Shown here: piece after piece, positions 3,001 to 62,323 of the stretch
How positions within the stretch are numbered: position 1 is the first letter of the stretch
Layout: the number at the start of each line of letters is the position of its first letter
Source of the DNA: Watersipora subatra
Lineage: Eukaryota > Bryozoa > Gymnolaemata > Cheilostomatida > Watersiporidae
Assembly (NCBI RefSeq): GCF_963576615.1
Contig: NC_088714.1
Coordinates: 744,001 to 808,000, forward strand
Length of the DNA stretch: 64,000 nucleotides
Direction of reading: 5' to 3'
The notes under the pieces: generated by a model
Database searches by the model: none
Seen by the model: the letters and a program-made list of their open reading frames with translations, nothing else
Told to the model about the DNA's origin: nothing
Made by a program: the position numbers and the translations under genes

Positions 3001-6000
3001 CTAGTCTTGTTTATATGTTATACTGTTATACACTTGTGTGCATGACAAGAATTGCGCAAGTCATGTTTACTATTATTCTGGCATATTCTAGAACATGTTT
3101 TCCTACTATATGAGCAAAGTTCCTGGTTATGGCAAATCAGTTCAGTATTACACTTCTACATTACAGTTCAATACATTATACATACAGCTGTCCTCTTCTG
3201 CTCTTCTATAATAGACATACACGCATACGTGAACACAGAGCTAACTTTCACAATTACATCAAGTAAAGTACACATTATGACGTTGTGTGATGCTTAATGT
3301 CACACAAGCTGGCTTCATGGCTCACGGCTCAAAGTTCTTATTATAATAAGTTTAACAATATTTATAAGCAAGCTCAAGTCACTAGCTTACGTTACTCAAA
3401 CTAACCAAGTTGCTAATTTTTCCATTTGCTAATTAGTCAGCTTAGCCAATGGCAACTGCATTACCTGCTACTGTTTATAAGCTGCGTTTATTACCCATGC
3501 AACTACATGCATTCATCTAGTATACATTGTATATATAATATATATGATATATAATATATATATGAGTATATGCTCCCTCACTTCGGTTTGGTTGAGCACT
3601 CTGTGAGAGGTGCGGCACTATTAGCCTTTGTGCAAAGCTCATCACTTTTGTGATTTGAGCACTCTGGTGTCAGCACATTGACTTTCTTAAAGTCTGCGAG
3701 GCAACTTAGTTGTTTCGTGGCAGGAAGTCAACTCTCATGGGTAATGGGATTTGTGTCCCTTGCCTAAGCTCTGAGCTGCACTGATGAGGCTTAAATAGCC
3801 GAAACAGTACTGTCTGTAGCATGATATATAATATATATTTACAAAAATACATTAAATCATGAACAATATGTCAAGGTTTGAGTGTTACAAATTTGCTAGA
3901 AAAATGTTGTCTGAACCCCTTTTAACCAGTTAGGTTGAGCTCTGATCTAAACAACTAAGTTGTTTAGGGTTTATTACAACTATGGTGTAACTTTGATGTT
4001 ATCGTTAGTCTAGCTGCCATATCTAGTAGGGGCTGTCATGTAGTTACCAAAGTGACGCACAATAGCCTCACTCCAACATCTTAATTACTGAAACTGTTAA
4101 AAGGGTATTATTGACTGCCACACCTCTGCTAAAATGAAACACAAAGGGTGCACTCTTTCTAAGATGGAGACGGAAATGCAAGTTGATAAACTCACCTATA
4201 GTAACGAGAGCCAGTTGCCAGGTCAGAGCAGTCATCAAATATCTCCAGAGTTGAGGGGCCACTATTGTAGCCAAGAACAACGACAAGCAGGTGGCACCAA
4301 ACGGCCCGATCTGTTTGCCTGGAAAATGTTCTTTTATTATGTTGGTAGTGGCTACGTGTAACATCCCACTTCCAGAACCTTCAATATCGGTACATTTTAT
4401 AAACTGGGTAAATATGAATCGTTTAATGCCGAGGAAACATGCTGCCAGATTTACCTGAGACGATTCCGGTCAGCAACAGTGCTTGCCATGAAGAAGAAGT
4501 GACGGCCGTTAGAGCTATCCCTCCTGAGAGAAAAATGCCTCCTATAAGCTGCAGCCACTTGCTACCCAATTTCTTGTGTAGGTAGAATGAGGGCAAGCCT
4601 GAAACACGGCTGAATATAAAGTCTTACTGCTGAAAATGACCTGTTTGTTACTTGTGTTCCTAGTAAATGTTCTCTGGTGAATAAATAGTGGGTCAAACGA
4701 TGGTGTAATATTACTCCTATGACATGCTAAGACAAACATTGAGGGAATATTTTCAAGCTGAAACATTAAAAACACACGCAACTGTAAAATCCAATTGCTT
4801 TGCGGTCTTTTCATACTTGGTAATATTTTATCCAGCTTTTTCAAATTGTTTTATAAGTTGAAACGAGTTGAGGCTAGCAAAATAATAGGACCAGCATTAT
4901 TGAAGTAGCAGTGGACAAGTGAAAACAAATTTCTGTCACCAGCCTTATGAAAACTTAGCTTGCCAAGTTTTCTAATACATGCCACTATGTCAATAGCTAC
5001 ACATTTCTACACATGTGTCACTATTACGCTAGCTACAGCTGCTGTCATGCTAATATTTCTACACATGTGTCACTATTACGCTAGCTACAGCTGCTGTCAT
5101 GCTAATATTTCTACACATGTGTCACTATTACGCTAGCTACAGCTGCTGTCATGCTAATATTTCTACACATGTGTCACTATTACGCTAGCTACAGCGGTCA
5201 TGTGTTTATCTGCAACTCGAACATTTCTATACATGTCACTATGTCACTAGCTAAACATGTCTTGTGTTTATGTATATATGGCTGGTACATAAAAATTATG
5301 TGTTGTAGCATAAAGTACATATGGCTGGTACACAGGAGGTATGTGTTGTAGCATATAGTATATATGGCTAGTACATAGAAATTATGTGTTGTAGCATAAA
5401 GTACATATGGCTGGTACACAGGAGGTATGTGTTGTAGCATATAGTACATATGGCTAGTATATAAGAAGTATGTGTTGTAGCATATAGTATATATGCCTGG
5501 TACATAGGAAGTATGTGTTGTAACATATAGTACATATGCCTGGTACATAGGAAGTATGTGTTGTAACATATAGTACATATGGCTATTATATAAGAAGTAT
5601 GTGTTGTAGCATATAGTATATATGGCTAGTACATAGGAAGTATGTGTTGTAGCATATAGTACATATGGCTAGTACATAGGAAGTATGTGTTGTAACATAT
5701 AGTACATATGGCTATTATATAAGAAGTATGTGTTGTAGCATATAGTATATATGGCTGGTACATAAGAAGTATGTGTTGTAGCATATAGTATATATGGCTG
5801 GTGCATAGGAAGTATGTGTTGTAGCATATAGTGCATATGGCTGGTACATAGGAAGTATGTGTTGTAGCATATAATACATATGGCTGGTATATAGGAAGTA
5901 TGTGTTGTAGCATATAATACATATGGCTGGTACATAAGAAGTATGTGTTGTAGCATATAGTACATATGGCTGGTGCATAGGAAGTATGTGTTGTAGCATA

Positions 6001-9000
6001 TAGTATATATGGCTGGTACATAGGAAGTATGTGTTGTAGCATATAGTGCATATGGCTGGTGCATAGGAAGTATGTGTTGTAGCATATAGTACATATGGCT
6101 GGTGCATAGGAAGTATGTGTTGTAGCATATAATACATATGGCTGGTACATAGGAAGTATGTGTTGTAGCATATAGTACATATGCCTGGTACATAAGAAGT
6201 ATGTGTTGTAGCATAAAGTACATATGGCTAGTATATAAGAAGTATGTGTTGTAGCATATAGTACATATGCCTGGTACATAAGAAGTATGTGTTGTAGCAT
6301 ATAGTACATATGGCTGGTGCATAGGAAGCATGTGTTGTAGCATATAGTATATATGGTTGGTACATAAGAAGTATGTGTTGTAGCATATAGTACATATGGC
6401 TGGTGCATAGGAAGCATGTGTTGTAGCATATAGTATATATGGTTGGTACATAGGAAGTATGTGTTGTAACATATAGTACATATGGCTATTATATAAGAAG
6501 TATGTGTTGTAGCATATAGTATATATGGCTAGTACATAGGAAGTATGTGTTGTAGCATATAGTACATATGGCTAGTACATAGGAAGTATGTGTTGTAGCA
6601 TATAGTATATATGCCTGGTATATAGGAAGTATGTGTTGTAGCATATAATACATATGGCTGGTACATAAGAAGTATGTGTTGTAGCATATAGTACATATGG
6701 CTGGTGCATAGGAAGTATGTGTTGTAGCATATAGTGCATATGGCTGGTACATAGGAAGTATGTGTTGTAGCATATAATACATATGGCTGGTATATAGGAA
6801 GTATGTGTTGTAGCATATAATACATATGGCTGGTACATAAGAAGTATGTGTTGTAGCATATAGTACATATGGCTGGTGCATAGGAAGTATGTGTTGTAGC
6901 ATATAGTGCATATGGCTGGTGCATAGGAAGTATGTGTTGTAGCATATAGTACATATGCCTGGTACATAAGAAGTATGTGTTGTAGCATAAAGTACATATG
7001 GCTAGTATATAAGAAGTATGTGTTGTAGCATATAGTACATATGCCTGGTACATAAGAAGTATGTGTTGTAGCATATAGTACATATGGCTGGTGCATAGGA
7101 AGCATGTGTTGTAGCATATAGTATATATGGTTGGTACATAGGAAGTATGTGTTGTAGCATATAGTACATATGGCTGGTACATAGGAAGTATGTGTTGTAG
7201 CATAAAGTACATATGGCTAGTACATAAGAAGTATGTGTTGAAGCATATAGTACATATGGCTAGTATATAAGAAGTATGTGTTGTAGCATATAGTATATAT
7301 GGCTGGTACATAGGAAGTATGTGTTGTAGCATATAGTACATATGGCTGGTATATAGGAAGTATGTGTTGTAGCATATAGTACATATGCCTGGTACATAGG
7401 AAGTATGTGTTGTAACATATAGTACATATGCCTGGTATATAAGAAGTATGTGTTGTAGCATATAGTATATATGCCTGGTACATAGGAAGTATGTGTTGTA
7501 ACATATAGTATATATGGCTGGTACATAGGAAGTATGTGTTGTAGCATAAAGTACATATGGCTAGTACATAAGAAGTATGTGTTGAAGCATATAGTACATA
7601 TGGCTAGTATATAAGAAGTATGTGTTGTAGCATATAGTATATATGGCTGGTACATAGGAAGTATGTGTTGTAGCATATAGTACATATGGCTGGTATATAG
7701 GAAGTATGTGTTGTAGCATATAGTACATATGCCTGGTACATAGGAAGTATGTGTTGTAACATATAGTACATATGCCTGGTACATAAGAAGTATGTGTTGT
7801 AGCATATAGTATATATGGCTGGTACACAGGAAGTATGTGTTGTAGCATATAGTACATATGGCTGGTACATAGGAAGTATGTGTTGTAGCATATAGTATAT
7901 ATGGCTGGTACATAGGAAGTATGTGTTGTAGCATATAGTACATATGGCTAGTATATAAGAAGTATGTGTTGTAGCATATAGTATATATGGCTGGTACATA
8001 AGAAGTATGTGTTGTAGCATATAGTATATATGCCTGGTGCATAGGAAGCATGTGTTGTAGCATATAGTACATATGGCTAGTATATAAGAAGTATGTGTTG
8101 TAGCATATAGTATATATGCCTGGTACATAGGAAGTATGTGTTGTAACATATAGTACATATGCCTGGTACATAAGAAGTATGTGTTGTAGCATATAGTATA
8201 TATGGCTGGTACATAGGAAGTATGTGTTGTAACATATAGTACATATGGCTAGTATATAAGAAGTATGTGTTGTAGCATATAGTATATATGCCTGGTGCAT
8301 AGGAAGTATGTGTTGTAGCATATAGTATATATGGCTGGTATATAGGAAGTATGTGTTGTAGCATATAATACATATGGCTGGTACATAGGAAGTATGTGTT
8401 GTAGCATATAGTACATATGGCTGGTACATAAGAAGTATGTGTTGTAACATATAGTATATATGCCTGGTACATAGGAAGTATGTGTTGTAACATATAGTAC
8501 ATATGCCTGGTACATAAGAAGTATGTGTTGTAGCATATAGTATATATGGCTGGTGCATAGGAAGTATGTGTTGTAGCATATAGTACATATGGCTAGTATA
8601 TAAGAAGTATGTGTTGTAGCATATAATACATATGGCTAGTACATAGGAAGCATGTGTTGTAGCATATAGTATATATGGCTAGTACATAAGAAGTATGTGT
8701 TGTAGCATATAGTATATATGGCTGGTACATAGGAAGTATGTGTTGTAGCATATAGTATATATGGCTAGTACATAAGAAGTATGTGTTGTAGCATATAGTA
8801 TATATGCCTGGTACATAGGAAGTATGTGTTGTAGCATATAGTACATATGGCTGGTACATGAAGTATGTGTTGTAGCATATAGTACATATGGCTGGTACAT
8901 AGGAAGTATGTGTTGTAGCATATAGTACATATGGCTAGTACATAGGAAGTATGTGTTGTAGCATATAGTATATATGGCTAGTACATAAGAAGTATGTGTT

Positions 9001-12000
9001 GTAGCATATAGTACATATGGCTGGTACATAGGAAGTATGTGTTGTAGCATATAGTACATATGGCTGGTACATGGAAGTTTGTGTTGTAACATATAGTATA
9101 TATGGCTGGTACATAGGAAGTATGTGTTGTAGCATATAGTATATATGGCTAGTACATAGGAAGTATGTGTTGTAGCATAAAGTACATATGGCTGGTACAT
9201 AGGAAGTATGTGTTGTAGCATATAATACATATGGCTGGTACATAGGAAGTATGTGTTGTAGCATATAGTATATATGGCTAGTACATAAGAAGTATGTGTT
9301 GAAGCATATAGTACATATGGCTAGTATATAAGAAGTATGTGTTGTAGCATATAGTATATATGCCTGGTACATAGGAAGTATGTGTTGTAACATATAGTAC
9401 ATATGCCTGGTACATAAGAAGTATGTGTTGTAGCATATAGTATATATGGCTAGTACATAGGAAGTATGTGTTGTAGCATATAGTACATATGGCTGGTACA
9501 CAGGAAGTATGTGTTGTAGCATATAGTGCATATGGCTGGTACACAGGAAGTATGTGTTGTAGCATATAGTGCATATGGCTAGTACATAAGAAGTATGTGT
9601 TGTAGCATATAGTATATATGGCTGGTACATAAGAAGTATGTGTTGTAGCATATAGTACATATGGCTGGTACATAGGAAGTATGTGTTGTAGCATAAAGTA
9701 CATATGGCTAGTATATAAGAAGTATGTGTTGTAACATATAGTACATATGCCTGGTACATAAGAAGTATGTGTTGTAGCATATAGTACATATGGCTGGTAC
9801 ATAGGAAGTATGTGTTGTAGCATATAGTACATATGGCTAGTACATAGGAAGTATGTGTTGTAGCATATAGTATATATGGCTGGTATATAGGAAGTATGTG
9901 TTGTAGCATATAGTGCATATGGCTGGTACATAGGAAGTATGTGTTGTAGCATATAGTATATATGGCTGGTACATAAGAAGTATGTGTTGTAGCATATAGT
10001 ATATATGGCTAGTACATAGGAAGTATGTGTTGTAGCATATAATACATATGGCTGGTACATAGGAAGTATGTGTTGTAGCATATAGTATATATGGCTGGTA
10101 CATAGGAAGTATGTGTTGTAGCATATAGTACATATGGCTGGTACATAAGAAGTATGTGTTGTAGCATATAGTACATATGGCTGGTACACAGGAAGTATGT
10201 GTTGTAGCATATAGTGCATATGGCTAGTACATAAGAAGTATGTGTTGTAGCATATAGTACATATGGCTGGTACATAGGAAGTATGTGTTGTAGCATAAAG
10301 TACATATGGCTAGTATATAAGAAGTATGTGTTGTAACATATAGTACATATGCCTGGTACATAAGAAGTATGTGTTGTAGCATATAGTACATATGGCTGGT
10401 ACATAGAAAGTATGTGTTGTAGCATATAGTACATATGGCTAGTACATAGGAAGTATGTGTTGTAGCATATAGTATATATGGCTAGTATATAGGAAGTATG
10501 TGCTGTAGCATATAGTACATATGGCTGGTGCATAGGAAGTATGTGTTGTAGCATATAGTACATATGGCTGGTACATAGGAAGTATGTGTTGTAGCATATA
10601 ATACATATGGCTAGTATATAAGAAGTATGTGTTGTAGCATATAGTATATATGCCTGGTACATAGGAAGTATGTGTTGTAGCATATAGTATATATGGCTGG
10701 TACATAGGAAGTATGTGTTGTAGCATATAGTATATATGCCTGGTACATAGGAAGTATGTGTTGTAGCATATAGTACATATGGCTGGTACATAGGAAGTAT
10801 GTGTTGTAGCATATAGTACATATGGCTGGTGCATAGGAAGTATGTGTTGTAGCATATAATACATATGGCTGGTACATAAGAAGTATGTGTTGTAGCATAT
10901 AGTACATATGGCTGGTGCATAGGAAGTATGTGTTGTAGCATATAATACATATGGCTGGTACATAAGAAGTATGTGTTGTAGCATATAGTACATATGCCTG
11001 GTACATAGGAAGTATGTGTTGTAGCATATAGTACATATGGCTGGTACATAAGAAGTATGTGTTGTAGCATATAGTATATATGCCTGGTACATAGGAAGTA
11101 TGTGTTGTAGCATATAGTACATATGGCTAGTATATAAGAAGTATGTGTTGTAACATATAGTACATATGCCTGGTACATAAGAAGTATGTGTTGTAGCATA
11201 TAGTACATATGGCTAGTACATAGGAAGTATGTGTTGTAGCATATAGTACATATGGCTAGTATATAAGAAGTATGTGTTGTAGCATATAGTATATATGGCT
11301 GGTACATAAGAAGTATGTGTTGTAGCATATAGTACATATGGCTGGTACATAGGAAGTATGTGTTGTAGCATATAATACATATGGCTGGTACATAGGAAGT
11401 ATGTGTTGTAGCATATAGTACATATGGCTGGTACACAGGAGGTATGTGTTGTAGCATATAATACATATGGCTAGTATATAAGAAGTATGTGTTGTAGCAT
11501 ATGGTACATATGCCTGGTACATAAGAAGTATGTGTTGTAGCATATAGTATATATGGCTAGTACATAGGAAGTATGTGTTGTAGCATATAATACATATGGC
11601 TGGTACATAGGAAGTATGTGTTGTAGCATATAGTATATATGGCTGGTACATAGGAAGTATGTGTTGTAGCATATAGTACATATGGCTAGTATATAGGAAG
11701 TATGTGTTGTAGCATATAGTACATATGGCTGGTACATAGGAAGTATGTGTTGTAGCATATAGTATATATGCCTGGTACATAGGAAGTATGTGTTGTAGCA
11801 TATAGTACATATGGCTAGTATATAAGAAGTATGTGTTGTAACATATAGTATATATGGCTGGTACATAGGAAGTATGTGTTGTAGCATATAGTATATATGG
11901 CTGGTACATAGGAAGTATGTGTTGTAGCATATAATACATATGGCTGGTGCATAGGAAGTATGTGTTGTAGCATATAGTATATATGGCTGGTACATAAGAA

Positions 12001-15000
12001 GTATGTGTTGTAGCATATAGTATATATGGCTAGTACATAGGAAGTATGTGTTGTAGCATATAGTATATATGGCTAGTACATAGGAAGTATGTGTTGTAGC
12101 ATATAGTATATATGGCTAGTACATAGGAAGTATGTGTTGTAGCATATAGTACATATGGCTAGTATATAAGAAGTATGTGTTGTAACATATAGTATATATG
12201 GCTGGTACATAGGAAGTATGTGTTGTAGCATATAGTATATATGGCTGGTACATAGGAAGTATGTGTTGTAGCATATAATACATATGGCTAGTATATAAGA
12301 AGTATGTGTTGTAGCATATGGTACATATGCCTGGTACATAAGAAGTATGTGTTGTAGCATATAGTATATATGGCTAGTACATAGGAAGTATGTGTTGTAG
12401 CATATAATACATATGGCTGGTACATAGGAAGTATGTGTTGTAGCATATAGTATATATGGCTGGTACATAGGAAGTATGTGTTGTAGCATATAGTACATAT
12501 GCCTGGTACATGGAAGTATGTGTTGTAGCATATAGTACATATGGCTAGTATATAGGAAGTATGTGTTGTAGCATATAGTACATATGGCTGGTACATAGGA
12601 AGTATGTGTTGTAGCATATAGTATATATGCCTGGTACATAGGAAGTATGTGTTGTAGCATATAGTACATATGGCTAGTATATAAGAAGTATGTGTTGTAA
12701 CATATAGTATATATGGCTGGTACATAGGAAGTATGTGTTGTAGCATATAGTATATATGGCTGGTACATAGGAAGTATGTGTTGTAGCATATAATACATAT
12801 GGCTGGTGCATAGGAAGTATGTGTTGTAGCATATAGTATATATGGCTGGTACATAAGAAGTATGTGTTGTAGCATATAGTATATATGGCTAGTACATAGG
12901 AAGTATGTGTTGTAGCATATAGTATATATGGCTAGTACATAGGAAGTATGTGTTGTAGCATATAGTATATATGGCTAGTACATAGGAAGTATGTGTTGTA
13001 GCATATAGTATATATGGCTAGTACATAGGAAGTATGTGTTGTAGCATATAGTATATATGCCTGGTACATAGGAAGTATGTGTTGTAGCATATAGTACATA
13101 TGGCTAGTATATAAGAAGTATGTGTTGTAACATATAGTATATATGGCTGGTACATAAGAAGTATGTGTTGTAGCATATAGTATATATGGCTGGTACATAG
13201 GAAGTATGTGTTGTAGCATATAGTATATATGCCTGGTACATAGGAAGTATGTGTTGTAGCATATAGTATATATGGCTAGTACATAGGAAGTATGTGTTGT
13301 AGCATATAGTATATATGGCTAGTACATAGGAAGTATGTGTTGTAGCATATAATACATATGGCTGGTACATAGGAAGTATGTGTTGTAGCATATAATACAT
13401 ATGGCTGGTACATAAGAAGTATGTGTTGTAGCATATAGTATATATGGCTAGTACATAGGAAGTATGTGTTGTAGCATATAGTATATATGCCTGGTACATA
13501 GGAAGTATGTGTTGTAGCATATAGTATATATGGCTAGTACATAGGAAGTATGTGTTGTAGCATATAGTATATATGGCTAGTACATAGGAAGTATGTGTTG
13601 TAGCATATAATACATATGGCTGGTACATAGGAAGTATGTGTTGTAGCATATAATACATATGGCTGGTACATAGGAAGTATGTGTTGTAGCATATAGTACA
13701 TATGCCTGGTATATAGGAAGTATGTGTTGTAACATATAGTATATATGGCTGGTACATAGGAAGTATGTGTTGTAGCATATAGTATATATGGCTGGTACAT
13801 AGGAAGTATGTGTTGTAGCATATAATACATATGGCTGGTATATAAGAAGTATGTGTTGTAGCATATAGTACATATGGCTGGTACATAGGAAGTATGTGTT
13901 GTAGCATGAAGTACATATGGCTAGTATATAAGAAGTATGTGTTGTAACATATAGTACATATGCCTGGTACATAAGAAGTATGTGTTGTAGCATATAGTAC
14001 ATATGGCTGGTACATAGGAAGTATGTGTTGTAACATATAGTATATATGGCTGGTACATAGGAAGCATGTGTTGTAGCATATAGTATATATGGCTGGTGCA
14101 TAAGAAGTATGTGTTGTAGCATATAGTACATATGGCTAGTACATAAGAAGTATGTGTTGTAGCATATAGTATATATGGCTAGTACATAGGAAGTATGTGT
14201 TGTAGCATATAGTATATATGGCTAGTACATAGGAAGTATGTGTTGTAGCATATAGTATATATGGCTAGTACATAGGAAGTATGTGTTGTAGCATATAGTA
14301 CATATGGCTAGTACATAGGAAGTATGTGTTGTAGCATATAGTACATATGGCTGGTACACAGGAAGTATGTGTTGTAGCATATAGTGCATATGGCTAGTAC
14401 ATAAGAAGTATGTGTTGTAGCATATAGTATATATGGCTAGTACATAGGAAGTATGTGTTGTAGCATATAGTACATATGGCTAGTATATAAGAAGTATGTG
14501 TTGTAACATATAGTATATATGGCTGGTACATAGGAAGTATGTGTTGTAGCATATAGTATATATGGCTGGTACATAGGAAGTATGTGTTGTAGCATATAAT
14601 ACATATGGCTGGTACATAAGAAGTATGTGTTGTAGCATATAGTATATATGGCTGGTGCATAGGAAGTATGTGTTGTAGCATATAGTACATATGGCTGGTA
14701 CATAGGAAGTATGTGTTGTAGCATATAGTACATATGGCTAGTACATAAGAAGCATGTGTTGTAGCATATAGTATATATGGCTAGTACATAGGAAGTATGT
14801 GTTGTAGCATATAGTATATATGGCTAGTACATAGGAAGTATGTGTTGTAGCATATAGTATATATGGCTAGTACATAGGAAGTATGCGTTGTAGCATATAG
14901 TACATATGGCTAGTACATAAGAAGTATGTGTTGTAGCATATAGTACATATGGCTAGTACATAGGAAGTATGTGTTGTAGCATATAGTATATATGGCTAGT

Positions 15001-17068
15001 ACATAGGAAGTATGTGTTGTAGCATATAATACATATGGCTGGTATATAGGAAGTATGTGTTGTAGCATATAGTACATATGGCTGGTACACAGGAAGTATG
15101 TGTTGTAGCATATAGTACATATGGCTAGTACATAGGAAGTATGTGTTGTAGCATATAGTATATATGGCTAGTACATAGGAAGTATGTGTTGTAGCATATA
15201 GTATATATGGCTAGTACATAGGAAGTATGTGTTGTAGCATATAGTATATATGGCTAGTACATAGGAAGTATGTGTTGTAGCATATAGTACATATGGCTAG
15301 TACATAAGAAGTATGTGTTGTAGCATATAGTACATATGGCTAGTACATAGGAAGTATGTGTTGTAGCATATAGTATATATGGCTGGTGCATAGGAAGTAT
15401 GTGTTGTAGCATATAGTACATATGGCTGGTACATAGGAAGTATGTGTTGTAGCATATAGTATATATGGCTAGTACATAGGAAGTATGTGTTGTAGCATAT
15501 AGTACATATGGCTAGTACATAGGAAGTATGTGTTGTAGCATATAGTATATATGGCTAGTACATAGGAAGTATGTGTTGTAGCATATAGTACATATGGCTA
15601 GTACATAAGAAGTATGTGTTGTAGCATATAGTACATATGGCTAGTACATAGGAAGTATGTGTTGTAGCATATAGTATATATGGCTGGTGCATAGGAAGTA
15701 TGTGTTGTAGCATATAGTACATATGGCTGGTACATAGGAAGTATGTGTTGTAGCATATAGTATATATGGCTAGTACATAGGAAGTATGTGTTGTAGCATA
15801 TAGTACAAATGGCTGGTACACAGGAAGTATGTGTTGTAGCATATAGTACATATGGCTGGTACATAGGAAGTATGTGTTGTAGCATATAATACATATGGCT
15901 GGTACATAGGAAGTATGTGTTGTAGCATATAGTATATATGGCTGGTGCATAGGAAGTATGTGTTGTAGCTTATAGTACATATGGCTAGTACATAGGAAGT
16001 ATGTGTTGTAGCATATAGTGCATATGGCTAGTATATAAGAAGTATGTGTTGTAGCATATAGTATATATGGCTGGTGCATAGGAAGTATGTGTTGTAGCTT
16101 ATAGTGCATATGGCTAGTACATAAGAAGTATGTGTTGTAGCATATAGTACATATGGCTGGTACATAGGAAGTATGTGTTGTAGCATATAGTATATATGGC
16201 TAGTACATAAGAAGTATGTGTTGTAGCATATAGTATATATGGCTGGTGCATAGGAAGTATGTGTTGTAGCTTATAGTGCATATGGCTAGTACATAAGAAG
16301 TATGTGTTGTAGCATATAGTATATATGGCTGGTACATAGGAAGTATGTGTTGTAGCATATAGTATATATGGCTAGTACATAGGAAGTATGTGTTGTAGCA
16401 TATAGTATATATGGCTAGTACATAGGAAGTATGTGTTGTAGCATATAATACATATGGCTGGTACATAAGAAGTATGTGTTGTAGCATATAGTATATATGG
16501 CTAGTATATAGGAAGTATGTGTTGTAGCATATAGTATATATGGCTAGTACATAGGAAGTATGTGTTGTAGCATATAATACATATGGCTGGTACATAAGAA
16601 GTATGTGTTGTAGCATATAGTACATATGGCTAGTACATAGGAAGTATGTGTTGTAGCATATAGTATATATGGCTGGTACATAGGAAGTATGTGTTGTAGC
16701 ATATAGTACATATGGCTAGTATATAAGAAGTATGTGTTGTAACATATAGTACATATGCCTGGTACATAAGAAGTATGTGTTGTAGCATATAGTATATATG
16801 GCTGGTACATAGGAAGTATGTGTTGTAGCATATAGTGCATGTAATTGGAAGATAAAAATTTCAAGACAATATTAATCAGCGTACAAGCTATCTTGTGCAT
16901 GCTCGTCTGAACCGGTCCAACTATACTGCTGACAATCCTCTCATTGTATATCTGAATGTAGTAGACAGTCCCAATAGAGACGCTGCCGGTGATGTAGCCG
17001 TAGGATGCAAAGGTGCTGATACTAGTTGCCGCCAGAATCACCCACTTATACCATATCGGCACTGCCAT
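76..17068 (-). CDS. MCT-1: MCT-like (SLC16-like) transporter, exons 1-5, 3' part beyond the left edge
   Basis: Five exons on the minus strand with GT-AG borders: 16885-17068 (ATG at 17068, helix 1), 4455-4598 (helices 2-3), 4196-4378 (helices 4-5), 339-553 (helix 6 and start of the central loop) and 76-192 (acidic loop, DSEEAKDD). They join in frame to 281 codons. Exon lengths (184, 144, 183, 215, 117 nt) and phases equal those of MCT-2. The glycine-rich helix 4-5 segment (SGSGMLHVATTNIIKEHFPG) and the W-QLALVTIG start of helix 6 match the layout of SLC16 transporters, which move monocarboxylates with protons across the plasma membrane. The family's usual N-terminal DGGWGW motif is replaced by VPIWYKW, so the substrate is unknown. 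Intron 1 is 12,286 nt because of the 43-bp array, against 1,084 nt in MCT-2. Exon 6 onward would lie left of base 1. Confidence 0.68.
1591..1976. repeat. 49-bp minisatellite, eight units
   Basis: Units start with gttgtaggagtgcctactgt; most are 49 bp and two are 46 bp, lacking a triplet. The homologous place in MCT-2 intron 3 (29371-29418) has one unit, so this is a local expansion in MCT-1 intron 3. Confidence 0.95.
1985..2480 (+). mobile_element. Degenerate Penelope-like GIY-YIG remnant
   Basis: The plus-strand translation contains PKNIIYQAEITNKTDIKTES then YNELCTTEFKSKYNNH. After stops it continues in the same order with LYKYIWNFKNN, CCNLCL and ATLNKRDELIS-like text. This is the order seen at the 3' end of Penelope-like elements (IYQA, YIGLT, NH, YIWNLK, CNLC, LNKRNEL). 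The intact element at 60369-61001 shows the same series. The YIG catalytic motif is lost (YNE), so the copy is dead. A sister copy lies at 29440-29960. Confidence 0.5.
2836..2869. repeat. Perfect 34-bp palindrome
   Basis: Two 17-base arms (tttagcgtggctgtctg and its complement) meet without a spacer. In MCT-2 intron 3 the matching site (about 30174-30220) keeps the arms with a few changes and gains a short loop. It lies beside a conserved segment containing ctccgagttcaaatt. Confidence 0.9.
3562..3820 (+). mobile_element. Short non-autonomous element ending in a hammerhead ribozyme
   Basis: A 259-bp insertion flanked by a perfect 18-bp direct repeat (atgatatataatatatat at 3544-3561 and 3821-3838). 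The matching site in MCT-2 intron 3 (about 31443-31460) has one copy of that sequence and no insertion. The 3' end falls exactly on the last base of ribozyme stem I. The interior has no open reading frame. It fits a retrozyme-like or Penelope-LTR-derived non-autonomous retroelement and lies antisense to MCT-1. Confidence 0.7.
3775..3820 (+). ncRNA. Type I hammerhead self-cleaving ribozyme
   Basis: Stem I 5' strand GCTGCA (3775-3780); core CTGATGA (3781-3787); stem II GGCT/AGCC with loop TAAAT; core GAA (3801-3803); stem III ACA/TGT (3804-3806 and 3811-3813); GTC cleavage triplet ending at 3814; stem I 3' strand TGTAGC (3815-3820), pairing with one G-U. All invariant hammerhead bases are present. 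Confidence 0.88.
4996..5220. repeat. 52-bp minisatellite, about four units
   Basis: Unit gctaatatttctacacatgt... with ctagctacagctgctgtcat, repeating every 52 bp in MCT-1 intron 1. The counterpart in MCT-2 (32640-33050) is a related 49-bp unit with about eight copies. Confidence 0.9.
5281..16838. repeat. Giant 43-bp minisatellite array, about 269 units
   Basis: Unit, in two parts: gtagcatatagtatatatgg then ctggtacataggaagtatgtgtt split as ctggtacatagg and aagtatgtgtt; 43 bp. Units differ mainly at a few positions (ggctgg/ggctag/gcctgg, gtacat/gtgcat/gtatat, ataggaag/ataagaag, agcat/aacat). A few units lack one or more bases (for example near 8855, 9070 and 12510). It fills most of MCT-1 intron 1. 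The same unique flanks in MCT-2 (tgtgtttatgtatatatg on the left, ggaagataaaa on the right) enclose only about four units. Confidence 0.98.
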
Positions 17069-17231
17069 CTCAGCCTGATTTATCTAACAAGCACAACATA
17101 AAGAAGGATGCACATTATAAGATTCAGCATGGGTATCTCTGAATATCAAAGCGAGTTTAACCCTCACTGGCACATGAAGTTACACTTGTCAGATATCTCA
17201 TCATTCACTCCTGCTGAAGCAATAGCGAACA

Positions 17232-19641: not shown

Positions 19642-22142
19642 ATTTCACCTTTAAAGATTACACAATTGAATTAATACTCGAGACAAAATATAATTAACCA
19701 ATGCGTGAAAAAAATAACAATAAGTAAGAAATGATGATGGGGCCCATTGCGAAATGGCAAAGCCAGTGGTACGCGAGCCCGAGTCAGCAGCACAAAAACC
19801 AGACCGTAACACTCACTCTCCAGACTGGAGATGGTGCCTCAGTTCCACCTTATATTTACCGAGACATTTTATTGATCTTATTGAATTAGGTAGTCGATTC
19901 CACAGCGCAGGTGTTGCAAAGTTTGAGGATCGTTGACCGGCTAAAGTTAGATGATTAGGTACGGGAAGAGAAAGTAATTGATGACGAGTATTATAAAATG
20001 GCAGTGCTGGATCACATTTTGAGTAAAATAATTTATGGGCTTGAATAAGCAACTTATATTTATGCAATTTATCAATAGTTAAAATATCAGAGGTTTTAAA
20101 TAAATCGTTTGTTGGAAATCCAAATGGCTTACGGTTAATGATTCTGACAATTTTCTTTTGAAACTGTATTATTTTGCTAAGCTGAATTTTGGATGCATTG
20201 CCATAAGTTTCTATTGAATAGCATAATTTGGAGTGAATAAGTGTGTAATAAAGCATAATCAGCAATTTTTTTGGAATGAAAGCACTTATGCGGTAAAAGA
20301 TGCCTGATATAGGCCGTAAATCTAATAAAAGCTTACGAGCGTGGGAAGACCAGTTCAAATTTTTATCAATTGACACTCCAAGAAATTTGACTTCATCAAT
20401 TGCTTTAATAAAAGTGTTATTAAAAAGAATAGGCTGATCAAATTTAATTTTGCTCTGGTAATTTTTAAAAACAGTAAAACAGGTTTTGTCAAAGTTAATG
20501 GTTAATTTGTTCGTTTGACACCAATCAGCTAGTTTTTCAAGATCAGATTGGACTTTAGGTAAATCGTCGTTTAGGTTCTTTGAACTCATAAACAAATTGG
20601 TATCATCAGCATACAATATAGGAGTTAGATGAGTTAAACAATCACAAAGATCATTTATGTAAATTAAGAATAAAGTCGGGCCTAGCACCGAGCCCTGAGG
20701 TACGCCACAAGTCAAATTGTCAGCGTTAGAAAAAGTATCATTAATTTTTGTTGTTTGGGTTCGGCGGGTTAAATAGCTTTGTATCCATCTGATGGTTAAC
20801 TCACTAAAATTAAATTGCTCTAGTTTTTTAAATAATATTGCGTGATCGATCGTATCAAAGGCCTTCCTGAAATCTATAAAAATTCCTATAACACATTCAC
20901 TTCGGTCAAACGATTCTAGAATTTGGTTAGTAAAAGTTGAGATGGCATCAGATGTGCCTCTAGCTCTTCTGAATCCAAATTGGTTTTTATGTAAAAGTGA
21001 TTTATTTTCTAAATAATCAACAATTTGTTGATTAACAAGTTTTTCCAATATTTTACTAAAGACTGGTAGAATTGAAATTGGACGAAAATTACCGCATTCA
21101 TTTAAAGAACCCCCTTTGTGCAAAGGTAATATTTTAGCTTTTTTAAGTGCATCAGGTACCTTCCCAGTCTCTAGTGATTTGTTAAAAATCTTACATAAAG
21201 GGTAAGCAATACTCTGTGAAACCGATTTCATAAATTTTGCAGTAATTTGATCTAGGCCAGAGGCTTTGTTTGAATTTATTGTATCTACAATTTTTAATAA
21301 ACCAGTTATATCGATGTATTGGAATTCAAAAGCTTCACCAGCATTATTTTCAAGCCACAATGCTTGATTTTGGATAGGGGGTTGAGGTACTAAGTTTACA
21401 AATTTCAAGGCCAGTCTTTTACCAATATTACTAAAAAAGGAATTGAGCTCATTAGCTTTTTCAACATCCGTTATGGCTAGTTCATCAGGATTAAGATAAC
21501 AAATCAGTTTAGAAGGCTGTTTATGGCTATTTGTCTTTTGTTTTCCTAGAAGCTCATAGTTTACAAGCTGCCAAATCTGCTTTGAGCTGGTGCAGCTATT
21601 GAAAGCTTGCGAAAAATAATTATATTTGGAGTCCCTCAAATTCCTGCTAACATCGTTTCTAAGTTTGTTATATTGGCACTTCAATTTTAAATTAAGTGGG
21701 TTAGATTGAAGTTTTCTATGAAGACGATATTTCTTTTTAACGCTCAACAAAAGGTTTTCAGTCATCCATGGCTTTAAGAAAGTTTGATTAGATTTAGTGT
21801 TTACTGATTTTTGGTATTTACATTTCTGGGAACAATCAGATAATTTGTCAAAAAAAGCGTTATAGAAGTAATCGACATCATTTGAAAAGATTTTGTCCCA
21901 ATTAGTGTTTTCAAGCATGATTCTTAGACTTTTATAATCAATTACAGGATATGAATTAGTAGTTTTTCGGGAGATGGGTTGATTATTTTTAAATTTGTGA
22001 AAAAATGAAAATGTGGGCAAGTGGTCACTAAAGTCTGCGCTTATAGTTCCAGATGTCACTGTCGGACTAACAAAGTTTGTCAAAATGTGATCCAAGCACG
22101 TCCATTTGTTTGAGGGCTTAAAATGGTGGGTTGCAATAGTTA
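19640..22142 (-). mobile_element. 5'-truncated non-LTR retrotransposon (CR1/Jockey-type LINE)
   Basis: Inserted between homologous flanks (gaaatgaatg on the left, ctgacaagtagatagaaacc on the right). The block around 57340-57370 has the same flanks with nothing between. The element runs on the minus strand: the end of an endonuclease domain, reverse transcriptase, a short 3' UTR and a CA-repeat tail. The 5' part of the endonuclease and any ORF1 are missing, which is typical of truncated LINE insertion. No clear target-site duplication was seen. Confidence 0.85.
19813..22142 (-). CDS. LINE ORF2 fragment: endonuclease end plus reverse transcriptase
   Basis: An open frame of about 775 codons with no true start; it is entered by truncation. 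Near the N-terminus are LDHILTN and FSDHLPTF, the end of an APE-type endonuclease (SDH motif). Reverse-transcriptase motifs follow: LPLHKGG, NFRPISILP, QFGFR, IDFRKAFDTIDH (motif A), GVPQGSVLGPTLFLIYINDL, YADD (catalytic, 20602-20613) and KLTINFDKT. The C-terminal LWNRLPNSIR text is usual for CR1/Jockey-group elements. The frame is uninterrupted, suggesting a recent insertion. It cannot mobilise alone because the endonuclease is incomplete. Confidence 0.9.
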
Positions 22143-22328
22143 CTGACAAGTAGATAGAAACCCATCATCTCTTTAGACTGAGATCACAGCTTTTTTGACA
22201 AAAACAAGATATTTTATTGTTTTGACCAGTGTAGCATGCCAAGTCTTTTCTGAGACGAGTCATTTCATGAATATGTATATAAATACATCTTTATACGCAG
22301 CTATTTTTCTTTTTTATGTAAAACTTAC

Positions 22329-28900: not shown

Positions 28901-31900
28901 ATCCTAACCTTGAGTCCTGAATACACGTAGACGATGAACAGCTATTACCACTCATTTTATAGTAAAATATATTTTGTTTTGCTTTATTGTACACGAGTAA
29001 AATATTTGTTATTAGTTTTATTTTGTGGAATAGACTTTGCTGTTTAAAAAACATAAGCAAATCATTGTAACTGAATATGGAAGATGTGCGCTCCTTATCA
29101 ACTTATTGTAAAGTTACCGCAATCATTGTCTATAAAACCTGTCAACTTAGTCAAAAAAAGAGAAAAGTTGTTGGGGCAAACCGATAATACTGCAGTTATG
29201 GTACAGCCCACAAATCAAAAAGTTAAGTCTATTTTTTCCTTTTTGCATGGCCAAAGGAGTGAGTTTGAAAAGATATTGGAACAGATTAAGTAATTTAAAT
29301 GTATTTTACTGTTCATTTAGCATAAAATCCCTACAGCGTAACGTAAACGTTCCTGGAACGCATTATTTATGTTGTAGGAGTGCCTACTGTACTTATATAT
29401 TATGTGTTTGGTCTCTAATGCGGTGTTTTTGTCTGCAATTGCAGATAAAAAGACAATAACACCAGATAAATATCAAACATCCCCAAAAAACATAATATAC
29501 CAAGCTGAAGTAACAAATAAAACTGATATAAAAACAGAATCATACATTGAATTATGTACGACAGAATGCAAATCCAAATACAATAACCACAGCGTCAGTA
29601 AATTAGAACAGTAAACAAAATTAGACAGCATTTAATAAATACATATGGAATTTGAAAGACAATGACCAAAGTTTTGAGATACATGCAACTTGGATAATAA
29701 AAGCACTTACCCAGCCCTACAACAACAGAACAAAAGGTTGCTGTAATTTATGTCTATTAAAAGATATTACATAATATTCAAACGAGAATTAGCAACACTA
29801 AACAAAAGGGATAAATTAATATCAGCACGCAGGCAGGCACGGAGTTATCATTTCAAAATTTTATAAGCACTGTCCCTACACCGCGCCATCTTATCAAAAC
29901 CATCAGTGACAACCTAACCAATGCCAAACACAAAGCAACATTGCAGCTGCCGCAAAAAGACTTTAGTTAAAAATTGTCTAATAATATACATATACTAGAT
30001 ATATATATATATATATATCTTATTTATATATACAAATCTTAGGGGTTGTTGTCTGTCTGTTTGTTGGTCTGTCGTTTGTGTGTCCAGTTATAGCGATAAA
30101 AGCTTAGAAATGAAGAATCTGCTTTGCACTAGATTTCAATTCGGAACCTCCGAGTTCAAATTCAATGCACCTGTTTAGCGTGCCTGTCTGCCAGCCTGCA
30201 GACAGGCATGCTAAACCAAATTTCTAGACTACGTATCCAACTGATCATAGTGTTGAATAATTGTGAACATACTTATTACATCAGATAAAATACACATTAT
30301 GACATTGTGTGATGCTTAATGTCACACAAGCTGGCTTCATGGCTCACGGCTCAAGGCTCTTATTATAATAAGTTTAATAATATTTATAAGCAAGCTTAAG
30401 TTACTAGCTTAAAGGTTGACTTGCAACAAAATTCACATTACAGTTATTTGATATGAAAAGATTCACCATGTCTTACTCTGTTGTGTTGTAGGTGCCACAT
30501 ATGTGGAAATGTGATTACAAGCTCTTAAAAGCTCAAAAATGAAAAGCCGCCGTAGATTGGAATCTCTTTATTTCTCTGACGTAGTCATTACAGTTTGGTT
30601 ATTGTCTTGTCACGTGATGTTCTCACGTGAACTGAAAAGCCAGTATAAAGCTCAATATAAAACTTATCGTAGCAATAGTTTATGACAAACACTCCGGGTT
30701 TTACTGAAGACCCCGTATCAAATATAGATACTCGCTCCTTTACAGTTTTGTTTCGGCTTGATCTAATCTTCAAGTCGTAATCTGATCACGTGACCCAATA
30801 CTTCGCAAATAGTTTTTGCAGCACTTTTCGATTATCACAGGTGACCAACAGGCTCATCTTGTTTATCAAACAATGATATGTACTCCTTCAAAGTAAGGTT
30901 GAAAAATTAAATGAATTTTTACGGTAAGTTATAAGATATCAGTGCTGAAAGTGACTGCATTACAATGACGATAAAACATACGCGTAAGAACAATAGACAT
31001 GGTTTTATTGAATGCGTGAATTATATTTGTGAAAATATTTCGTCGAATAAGGTTGCATGAAAGTGTGAACAGAAACCATCTACCACAACTACGTCACATT
31101 TGAGCCATTTTGGAACGAGAATCCAAACTACGGCAGTCTTTGTGGCTGCGATAAACTGTTCGTTTTTTTAGCTTTTAAGAGCTTGTAATCACATTCCCAC
31201 ATATTTTGCACTTACAACACAACAGAGTAAGGCATGGTGAATCTGTTTATACCAAATAACTGTAATGTGAATTTTGTTGCAAGTCCACCTTTAGGTTACT
31301 CAAACTAACCAAGTTGTTTTCCATTGTCTAATTAGTCAACATAGCCAATGGTAACTGCATTACCTGCAACAGTTTATAAGCTGGTTTAATTACCCATGCA
31401 ACAACATGCATTCATCTAGTATACAATGTATATATCATATATATGATACATAATATATATTTACAAAAATAAATTAAATCATGAACACTATGTCAAGGTT
31501 TGAGTGTTACAAATCTGCTAGAGAAATGTTGTCGGAACCCCTTTTAACCAGTTAGGTTGGGCCCTGATCTAAACAGCTAAGTTGTTTGAGGTTTATCACA
31601 ACTATGGCGTAACTTTGGTGTTCTTGTTAGTCTAGCTGTCATCTCTAGTAGGGGCTGTCATGTAGTTCCCAAAGCGATGCACAATAGCCTCACTCCAACA
31701 TCTTAATTACTGAAACTGTTGAAAGGGTATTGACTGCCACACCACTGCTAAAATGAAACACAAAGGGTGCACCCTGACTAAGATGGAGATAAAAATGCAA
31801 GTTGATAAACTCACCTATAGTAACGAGAGCCAGTTGCCAGGTCAGAGCAGTCATCAAATATCTCCAGAGTTGAGGGGCCACTATTGTAGCTAAGAACAAC

Positions 31901-33485
31901 GACAAGCAGGTGGCACCAAACGGCCCGATCTGTTTGCCTGGAAAATGCTCTTTTATTATGTTGGTAGTGGCTACGTGTACCATCCCACTTCCAGAACCTT
32001 CAATATCGGTACATTTTATAAACTTGGTAAATATGAATCGTTTAATGCCGAGGAAACATGCTGCCAGATTTACCTGAGACAATTCCGGTCAGCAACAGCG
32101 CTTGCCATGAGGAAGAAGTGACGGCCGTTAAAGCTATCCCTCCTGAGAGAAAAATGCCTCCTAACAGCTGCAGCCACTTGCTACCCAATTTCTTGTGTAG
32201 GTAGAATGAGGGCAAGCCTAAAACACGGCTGAATATATAGTTCTACTGCTGAAAATGACCTGTTTGTTACTTATGTTCCTAGTAAAATTTAATGTTCTCT
32301 GGTGAATAAATAGTGGGTCCAACGATGGTGTAGTATTAATCATATGACATGCTAAGACGAACATTGAGAGAATATTTTTAAGCTAAAACATTAAAAACCC
32401 ACGCAACTGGATAGTACAGGTGCTTTGCAATCTTTACGCATTTGGTAATTATTCATCCAACTTTTTCAAATTGTTTTATAGCTTAATAGGTTGAGATGGA
32501 TAGATGCTACCAAAGTGATATGACAAGCATTATTGAATTAACAGTTGGACAAGTGAAAACAAATTTCTGTTAACAGCCTTATGAAAACTTAGCTTGCCAA
32601 GTTTGCTAATACATGCCACTATGTCAATAGCTACACATTTCTACACATGTGTCACTATGTCACTAGCTACTACTCTCATGCTAATATTTCTACACATGTG
32701 TCACTATGTCACTAGCTACTACTGTCATGGTAATATTTCTACACATGTGTCACTATGTCACTAGCTACTGCTGTCATGCTAATATTTCTACACATGTGTC
32801 ACTATGTCACTAGCTACTGTTGTCATGCTAATATTTCTACACACGTGTCACTATGTCACTAGCTACTACTGTCCTGCTAATATTTCTACACATGTGTCAC
32901 TATGTCACTAGCTACTGCTGTCATGGTAATATTTCTACACATGTGTCACTATGTCACTAGCTACTGCTGTCATGCTAATATTTCTACACATGTGTCACTA
33001 TGTCACTAGCTACTGCTGTCATGACAATATTTCTATACATATGTCAATATGACACTAGCTAAACATGTCTTGTGTTTATGTATATATATGGCTGGTACAT
33101 AAGAAGTATGTGTTGTAGCATATAGTACATATGGCTGGTGCATAGGAAGTATGTGTTGTAGCATATAGTACATATGGCTGGTATATAGGAAGTATGTGTT
33201 GTAGCATATAATACATATGGCTGGTATATAGGAAGTATGTGTTGTAGCATATAGTGCACGTAACTGGAAGATAAAATTCAAGACAATATTAATCAGCGTA
33301 CATGCTATCTTGTGCATGCTCGCCTGAATCGGGCCAACCATACTGCTGACAATCCTCTCATTGTATATCTGAATGTAGTAGACAGTTCCGATAGAGACGC
33401 TGCCGGTGATGTAGCCGTAAGAGGCAAAGGTGCTGATGCTAGTTGCCAACAGAATCACCCACTTATACCATATCGGCACTGCCAT
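22934..33485 (-). CDS. MCT-2: complete MCT-like (SLC16-like) transporter, nine exons, 487 aa
   Basis: Exons on the minus strand: 33302-33485, 32074-32217, 31815-31997, 28106-28320, 27842-27958, 27624-27731, 24452-24614, 23861-24031 and 22934-23112. Total CDS is 1,464 nt, giving 487 aa and a TAG stop. Every intron is GT-AG and phases chain (1,1,1,0,0,0,1,1). Exons code in order for helix 1; 2-3; 4-5; 6 plus loop; an acidic cytosolic loop (LDEDSEEAKDD); helix 7 (GLYSGGVDSCFTVLGDYAER, GLTNDQ); helices 8-9 (IQGITQIISAVVYLLL-like); helices 10-11 (ending PFLAG); helix 12 (VYIQETVNEKAALYLASAALL) and a short basic tail. This is the MFS/MCT order and usual length of about 450-520 aa. An in-frame TAG lies 9 nt upstream of the ATG, supporting this start unless a 5' exon exists. 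The canonical MCT helix-1 motif is absent, so this is a divergent member of unknown substrate. Confidence 0.72.
23100..23757. repeat. Approx. 29-bp minisatellite carrying a splice-acceptor sequence
   Basis: Unit tgtacactgtaatatatatg plus tctgttgta-like spacer, about 20 copies, in MCT-2 intron 8. On the transcribed minus strand each copy reads tatatattacag/TGTACA, which is the very sequence that forms the exon 9 acceptor at 23112. MCT-4 has one good copy at its exon 9 border and only scattered relatives near 58900. Confidence 0.9.
24903..26267 (-). mobile_element. Interspersed repeat, copy 1 (non-autonomous DNA transposon?)
   Basis: About 1.37 kb in MCT-2 intron 6. Ends are cccacgaccaaa and tttggtcgtggg, an inverted repeat of about 12 bp. 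The left flank homology continues outward (ctcctgtcatacag) as in copy 2, so the true end may lie slightly beyond. It carries on the minus strand a short conserved frame (25671-25868) with PKVSVIIVEVL, FFSADFKVTDILETFEYFGI and SSESRGNDDD. No transposase is seen. Other copies: 47981-49600 and 55914-56838. Confidence 0.65.
26270..26815. repeat. Low-complexity AT-rich tract
   Basis: Mostly ttata/tatat words without a fixed period. The homologous tract in MCT-4 intron 6 is 62370-63120. No gene is seen. Confidence 0.85.
26820..26990. repeat. 17-bp minisatellite, about ten units
   Basis: Unit agatactagcctgagtc in MCT-2 intron 6. The homologous array in MCT-4 starts at 63690 and is longer. Confidence 0.95.
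27297..27575. repeat. 30-bp minisatellite, about nine units
   Basis: Unit catgctcactttctgtaata plus tccccataga, 30 bp, near the 3' side of MCT-2 exon 6. Because 30 is a multiple of three, a plus-strand frame with a ten-residue period (MLTFCNIPID) runs through it; this is not a gene. Confidence 0.95.
27624..27731 (-). CDS. MCT-2 exon 6: transmembrane helix 7
   Basis: A 36-codon exon bounded by ttacag and a CAG/gta donor. It codes for SIALLVVSGLYSGGVDSCFT then VLGDYAERTLGLTNDQ. This matches the helix 7 and G-L-S/T-N-x-Q loop region of MCT transporters and continues directly into IANTLSVQGITQ of exon 7. It gives one of the clearer links to the family. Confidence 0.65.
27842..27958 (-). CDS. MCT-2 exon 5: acidic central-loop exon
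   Basis: A 39-codon exon between acceptor aatgacag and donor gtagcc, phase 0 on both sides. It codes for EEVGSKERTKFSEKKLSDLD followed by EDSEEAKDDN and a basic end (LRRPE). No membrane segment is present; it fits the large cytosolic loop between helices 6 and 7 of MCT proteins. The MCT-1 copy at 76-192 has the same length with a few changes (EEVGSKER to DDVVSKDK). Confidence 0.65.
29440..29960 (+). mobile_element. Degenerate Penelope-like GIY-YIG remnant, sister copy
   Basis: Reads PKNIIYQAEVTNKTDIKTES then YIELCTTECKSKYNNH, followed after stops by the same downstream blocks as 1985-2480. YIE is closer to the YIG motif than the MCT-1 copy (YNE). The element predates the MCT-1/MCT-2 duplication because both intron 3 copies have it at the same place. 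Confidence 0.5.
30412..31291. mobile_element. 880-bp element with long terminal inverted repeats, TA target (MITE)
   Basis: Left end aaggttgacttgcaacaaaa and right end ttttgttgcaagtccacctt are inverted repeats. The first 130 bp or so match closely and homology continues weakly to about 190 bp. TA flanks both ends. The MCT-1 intron 3 site near 3387 (agcttacgttac) has a single TA and no element. TA target and AAGG...CCTT ends suggest a non-autonomous Tc1/mariner-type element. No transposase is encoded. Confidence 0.8.
32640..33050. repeat. 49-bp minisatellite, about eight units
   Basis: Unit tgctaatatttctacacatg plus tgtcactatgtcactagcta plus ctgctgtca, in MCT-2 intron 1. It is the counterpart of the 52-bp array at 4996-5220. 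Confidence 0.92.
33085..33258. repeat. Short 43-bp array, about four units (progenitor state of the giant array)
   Basis: Same 43-bp unit and same flanks as 5281-16838, inside MCT-2 intron 1, but only about four units long. Confidence 0.97.
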
Positions 33486-55644: not shown

Positions 55645-55913
55645 CTACCTATAATGATGAGAGCGAGTTACCAACTCAGTGCAGTCATTAAATATCTCCA
55701 CAGCTGGAGCACAACCACGGTAGCCAGGTTCAAGGACAAACAAGCGGCACCAAAGGGGCCAATCTGCTTCCCAGGGAAATATTCTTTAATGATGTTGGTG
55801 GTCGCTACATGAAGCATACCGCTTCCAGAACCTACAGTACATACATACAGGTCCGTAATACATGCACATACATAATCCATAGTTAACTGGTGCTGTAGTA
55901 GCAATGTAGTAGT

Positions 55914-58137: not shown

Positions 58138-62323
<4,186 letters not shown>

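Follow-up and report, generated by a model that had tools for sequence, protein, structure and literature searches.

A 259-bp segment of the genome of the bryozoan Watersipora subatra ends in a hammerhead ribozyme motif, is bracketed by a long direct repeat and is missing from a paralogous copy of the same region. The question raised by this locus is how such a segment came to lie there, and what its ends can tell about the RNA from which it may have been copied. We consider it, with a probability of about 0.78, to be one retrotransposed copy of a short, non-coding retroelement with a type I hammerhead, of the same type as the non-LTR retrozymes of metazoans. The parts of this reading differ in strength: that an element bearing a hammerhead was retro-inserted, and this after the duplication that gave the two genes here called MCT-1 and MCT-2, is well supported, membership among the retrozymes is probable, and we infer both the RNA intermediate and a helper enzyme. 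All coordinates refer to the window, i.e., the whole 64,000-nt stretch that was analysed.

The insertion and its empty site

The insertion is defined by four features.

3544..3561, no strand: left copy of the 18-bp target-site duplication, identical to 3821-3838
3562..3820, plus strand: 259-bp insert, 46.7% GC, without tRNA, long A/T runs or terminal inverted repeat
3821..3838, no strand: right copy of the 18-bp target-site duplication, identical to 3544-3561
31443..31460, no strand: empty site of the MCT-2 paralogue, with a single target copy, 17/18 bases identical

The preliminary description of this DNA had reported a 259-bp insert between perfect 18-bp direct repeats and its absence from the MCT-2 counterpart, and both statements were confirmed, the single target copy of MCT-2 differing at one of its 18 bases. 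The limits of the insert are unambiguous: base 3543 differs from base 3820 and base 3562 from base 3839, and neither boundary can be slid. In BLASTN comparisons, the flank to the left of the insert (3387-3561) matches 31291-31460 (88.6%), and that to its right (3821-5253) matches 31443-32865 (89.5%). In the paralogue these two matches overlap by exactly 18 bases, which are the target, and the target copy of MCT-2 continues directly into the downstream flank without any insert. Since the flanks are paralogous and MCT-2 carries one uninterrupted target copy, the insertion is, on this comparison of the two copies, most likely younger than the MCT-1/MCT-2 duplication. A clean loss from MCT-2, which the earlier description had offered as an alternative, is unlikely because it would have had to restore a single target copy, and exactly one is present at the empty site.

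The surroundings of the insert have the following character.

4192..4623, minus strand: presumed MCT-1 exons (major facilitator type), with weak matches to MFS_1 and 6g9x

The minus-strand frames 4426-4623 and 4071-4469 match MFS_1 at E 0.026 and 0.013, both below the cut-off, and the former also matches the lactate transporter structure 6g9x at E 0.018; it is on these weak matches that the name MCT is based. A third stretch, 55647-55839, resembles both 4194-4386 and 31813-32005, with 76-77% identity in BLASTN. Four other frames in the window could be assigned to no credible family, and two of them had no PDB match. The insert thus probably lies within an intron of a monocarboxylate-transporter-like gene, in antisense orientation to it, so that the pre-mRNA of the host gene would contain the complement of the ribozyme rather than the ribozyme itself. 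A long array built from a repeat unit of roughly 43 bp extends over 5198-17083 and keeps overlapping minus-strand frames (PYVLYATTHTSY...) open; these frames are probably an artefact of the repeat and not a gene. A shorter stretch of the same repeat is found in the MCT-2 copy near 33083-33274.

The hammerhead motif

The elements of the ribozyme, all read from the sequence, were located as follows.

3775..3820, plus strand: type I hammerhead motif, seen in the sequence and in the descriptor scan, with an HH9 match below the gathering score
3775-3780/3815-3820, plus strand: stem I, GCTGCA/TGTAGC, 6 bp
3781-3787, plus strand: core CTGATGA
3788-3800, plus strand: stem II, GGCT-TAAAT-AGCC
3801-3804, plus strand: GAAA
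3804-3806/3811-3813, plus strand: stem III, pairs A-T, C-G and A-T
3807-3810, plus strand: palindromic GTAC loop of stem III

Complete by sequence, the hammerhead makes up the last 46 bases of the insert. Its stem III comprises two pairs beyond the conserved A-T, and the cleavage triplet GTC places the predicted cut after C3814 (3814/3815). A descriptor of type I hammerheads (stem I of 5 bp, stem II of at least 4 bp, stem III of at least 3 bp) gave a single match in the two strands of the window taken together and none in 1,196,800,000 random bases of first-order sequence with the dinucleotide frequencies of the window. Rfam returned nothing at the gathering score for the whole window; at a lax threshold, eight matches were obtained in 3500-3900, two to hammerhead families (HH9 at 17.8 bits and E 0.092, with a gathering score of 52; RAGATH-1 at 14.6 bits and E 9) and six to unrelated families at E 0.39 to 9.6. 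Judged by its elements, the motif is a canonical type I hammerhead, and the ribozyme is presumably active.

Hammerheads in viral contigs provided a yardstick. The pattern CTGATGAGNCNNAAATAGNCGAAAC, which fixes most of the stem II region and leaves two loop positions free, was found in 45 stretches of viral contigs, 35 of them distinct over 65 nt. All 45 have TT at the two free positions, as does the insert, and would allow a 5-bp stem I; none has a stem III as short as that of the insert. We regard them as hammerheads that belong to the viruses, not as relatives of the insert, and the constant TT suggests a fixed tertiary loop. When the GTAC loop was added to CTGATGAGNCNNAAATAGNCGAAAC, no match was left in the genome contigs or the viral contigs, and a 26-base pattern from the insert had none in the genome contigs, although these zeros weigh little because both collections consist of prokaryotic and viral sequences and entries from the source genome were perhaps excluded.

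Ends of the insert and nature of the template

The cut site is unbroken in the insert and lies 6 nt inside its end. Since the DNA extends these 6 nt beyond the predicted cut, the ends of the insert are not those of a cleaved RNA. With a self-cleaved linear monomer as the sole template, the insert would have started with TGTAGC and ended with GTC, which is not seen; the intact cut site means that the template was not solely the cleaved linear monomer. Barring template jumping, the template would have been continuous across the cut site: a circle closed again by ligation, or else a transcript that had not been cleaved. If the insertion was target-primed, reverse transcription would have started at base 3820 and stopped at 3562.

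Does the ribozyme fold itself set the end? The insert does end exactly at the last base of stem I, as had been pointed out, and this is partly automatic because flanking DNA has no reason to pair; the continuation of stem I into the flank amounts to 2 bp at best. When the two ends of the insert are joined, a 4-bp helix that prolongs stem I can form, and it is present in the predicted circular fold. However, a 4-bp helix is also reached by 41% of 244 14-mers from the insert and by 30% of 9141 14-mers from the window, and 35% of the 244 insert 14-mers fold as stably as the joined-end helix or more so. As evidence for a circle, the extended stem I therefore does no better than the 14-mer controls. 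With the cut 6 nt inside the insert and the joined-end pairing at the level of controls, the proposal that the end is set by the ribozyme fold is unsupported. The related proposal of a circular or self-processed RNA survives in part: the cleaved linear monomer is rejected as sole template, and a circular intermediate is possible. A more specific version, in which the insert would correspond to precisely one turn around a religated RNA circle, with reverse transcription starting at the boundary of stem I and loop 1, 6 nt past the healed cut site, and the monomer cDNA being integrated, is tentative and on balance rather doubtful.

The RNA of the insert is predicted to be highly self-paired, with z-scores against 200 shuffles each of -3.6 for the linear and -4.1 for the circular form. 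The predicted energy of the circle (-90.2 kcal/mol) is not lower than that of the linear molecule (-94.7). The insert is richer in GC (46.7%) than the approximately 1 kb on either side (36.3%), and the stop-to-stop frames of at least 45 aa that overlap it reach 49, 50 and 54 aa.

Candidate helper elements

Two candidate sources of a helper enzyme lie in the same window.

59337..61156, plus strand: remnant taken for Penelope-like, candidate helper, with motifs read from separate frames
60279-61001, plus strand: GIY-YIG-like frame of this remnant
19813-22164, minus strand: open reverse transcriptase frame of 783 aa, RVT_1 E 4.1e-40

The long open frame is presumably of LINE type. The element at 59337-61156 we take to be Penelope-like from its reverse transcriptase-like (RT-like) and GIY-YIG-like motifs, the RT-like motif lying upstream of 60279-61001 in another frame; Pfam and PDB searches with the Penelope-like frame lent no support, the only match being an unrelated ribosomal protein at E 1.5. 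An inverted copy of the 3' end of the remnant occupies 59337-59728 and is 98.7% identical (BLASTN). At both ends of the remnant, a stretch reading CTGATGATTGTCTGCGTAACAGACATGAA(A/C)C looks similar to a minimal hammerhead, and just past its tail, at 61222-61264, a perfect inverted repeat of 20 bp was seen by eye, its arms 3 bases apart. About 1.1 kb from the insert, 2306-2455 may be an older fragment of a Penelope-like endonuclease, with 13/23 residues identical to the frame 60279-61001; the segment that holds it, 1929-2569, is shared with 29369-30012 (BLASTN).

With the Penelope-like remnant, a plausible helper family is present in the window of the insert. In the mechanism that we propose, a helper enzyme, in all likelihood that of a LINE or a Penelope-like element, would have reverse transcribed RNA from another copy of the hammerhead element at a staggered cut in AT-rich DNA of the presumed MCT-1 intron, after the duplication. 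The purified Penelope-like protein of Anolis is described as cutting AT-rich DNA and starting reverse transcription within its RNA, and hammerhead mutants as having no effect on Penelope-like insertion in vitro (PMC11167929). By analogy only, this behaviour would fit an AT-rich insertion from an uncut or circular template.

Probable kinship with retrozymes

The closest known counterparts appear to be the metazoan non-LTR retrozymes, which Cervera and de la Pena (2020, PMC7229834) describe as carrying type I hammerheads in units of about 170-400 nt, with self-paired RNA and duplications of more than 4 bp. The insert resembles them in its type I hammerhead, its size, its lack of coding capacity, its duplication of more than 4 bp, the absence of LTRs and its highly self-paired RNA. 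Its 46.7% GC is under the limit of 50% given in the text of that paper and over the limit of 45% given in one figure legend (PMC7229834). A likely Penelope-like remnant in the window of the insert is a further shared trait. However, retrozymes are described as tandem repeats (PMC7229834), whereas the insert is a lone monomer at its locus, where no tandem copies were found. Within the window, BLASTN returned only the insert itself plus four matches of 13-22 nt, and no LTR-like repeat of it.

Other hammerhead-bearing elements share some of these properties. The hammerhead repeats of Nematostella vectensis likewise combine a type I hammerhead with a long duplication (15 bp, against 18 bp here) but are described as repeats (PMC4918200). 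The LTR retrozymes of plants are also ribozyme-bearing, non-autonomous retroelements for which an empty site is known, from a filled and empty pair between two Citrus genomes; they differ in having mostly type III hammerheads, LTRs and 4-bp duplications (PMC4918200). In the light of these Nematostella and Citrus cases, neither the long duplication nor the empty site is new in kind. The insert is accordingly filed in the broader class of hammerhead-bearing non-autonomous non-LTR retroelements, as a new example of a kind already known.

Alternative origins

The preliminary description had named Penelope LTRs alongside retrozymes. A solo pseudo-LTR (pLTR) or an end fragment of a Penelope-like element would also carry a hammerhead related to type I within a retroelement end, and the remnants in the window (59337-61156 and possibly the older 2306-2455), the preference of a Penelope-like protein for AT-rich DNA (PMC11167929) and the rotifer pLTRs of 193, 212 and 218 bp reported in PMC3846280, close to the insert in size, are in keeping with it. 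Penelope hammerheads are, however, described as minimal and as usually lacking the non-conserved portion of helix III (PMC7229834, PMC7761336), and are attached to a reading frame, whereas the insert has a canonical hammerhead with a closed helix III and no such frame. Within the window, moreover, the remnant and the insert share no BLASTN similarity above 22 nt, and the rotifer duplications are given as 8-10 bp or absent, with none at several solo pLTRs (PMC3846280), compared with 18 bp here. The retrozyme type is thus favoured, and a Penelope pLTR is unlikely. The size and the long duplication would equally suit a SINE mobilised by a LINE, with an internal Pol III promoter and a hammerhead present by chance, and schistosome repeats such as Sm-alpha, short retroelements with a type I hammerhead, do join tRNA sequence to the ribozyme (PMC4918200, PMC8490949, PMC6155905). 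No tRNA-related part was found in the insert: ARAGORN detects no tRNA anywhere in the window, the nearest approach to an A box falls within the ribozyme and has two mismatches, and the sole B-box candidate at up to three mismatches has three. As the insert also contains no A or T run of at least 5, a SINE-like origin is quite unlikely.

That the segment is a DNA transposon of the MITE kind, or an accidental insertion, and not a retroelement at all would agree with its shortness, the absence of a long reading frame and the target duplication. However, it has no terminal inverted repeat, with no more than 5/12 bases matching when 12-nt stretches within 6 nt of the two ends are compared, and 18 bp is a long duplication for a DNA transposon. 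So improbable a ribozyme motif also has, to our knowledge, no role in a DNA pathway, and we find this origin scarcely credible. An endogenised foreign viroid-like circular RNA, without a genomic family, would share the size, the strong self-pairing and the single copy seen within the window. Several viroid-like RNAs, however, carry ribozymes on both strands, and the descriptor finds no hammerhead on the minus strand. Genome-encoded families with the same features are, moreover, described from several animal phyla (PMC7229834), and a viroid-like origin is very improbable.

Implications for retrozyme biology

For animal retrozymes, the route by which the RNA re-enters the genome, from a circle or from an uncut template, has been proposed and not demonstrated in the accounts of PMC7229834 and PMC7761336. 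A monomer with clear ends, a target-site duplication and an empty site marks the point at which reverse transcription would have started, here base 3820 if the insertion was target-primed. Should the insert indeed be one lap of a religated circle, it would preserve in genomic DNA a trace of the step with a circular template that is proposed in the retrozyme literature. Comparing many such integrants from one genome would provide a direct test of the circle model.
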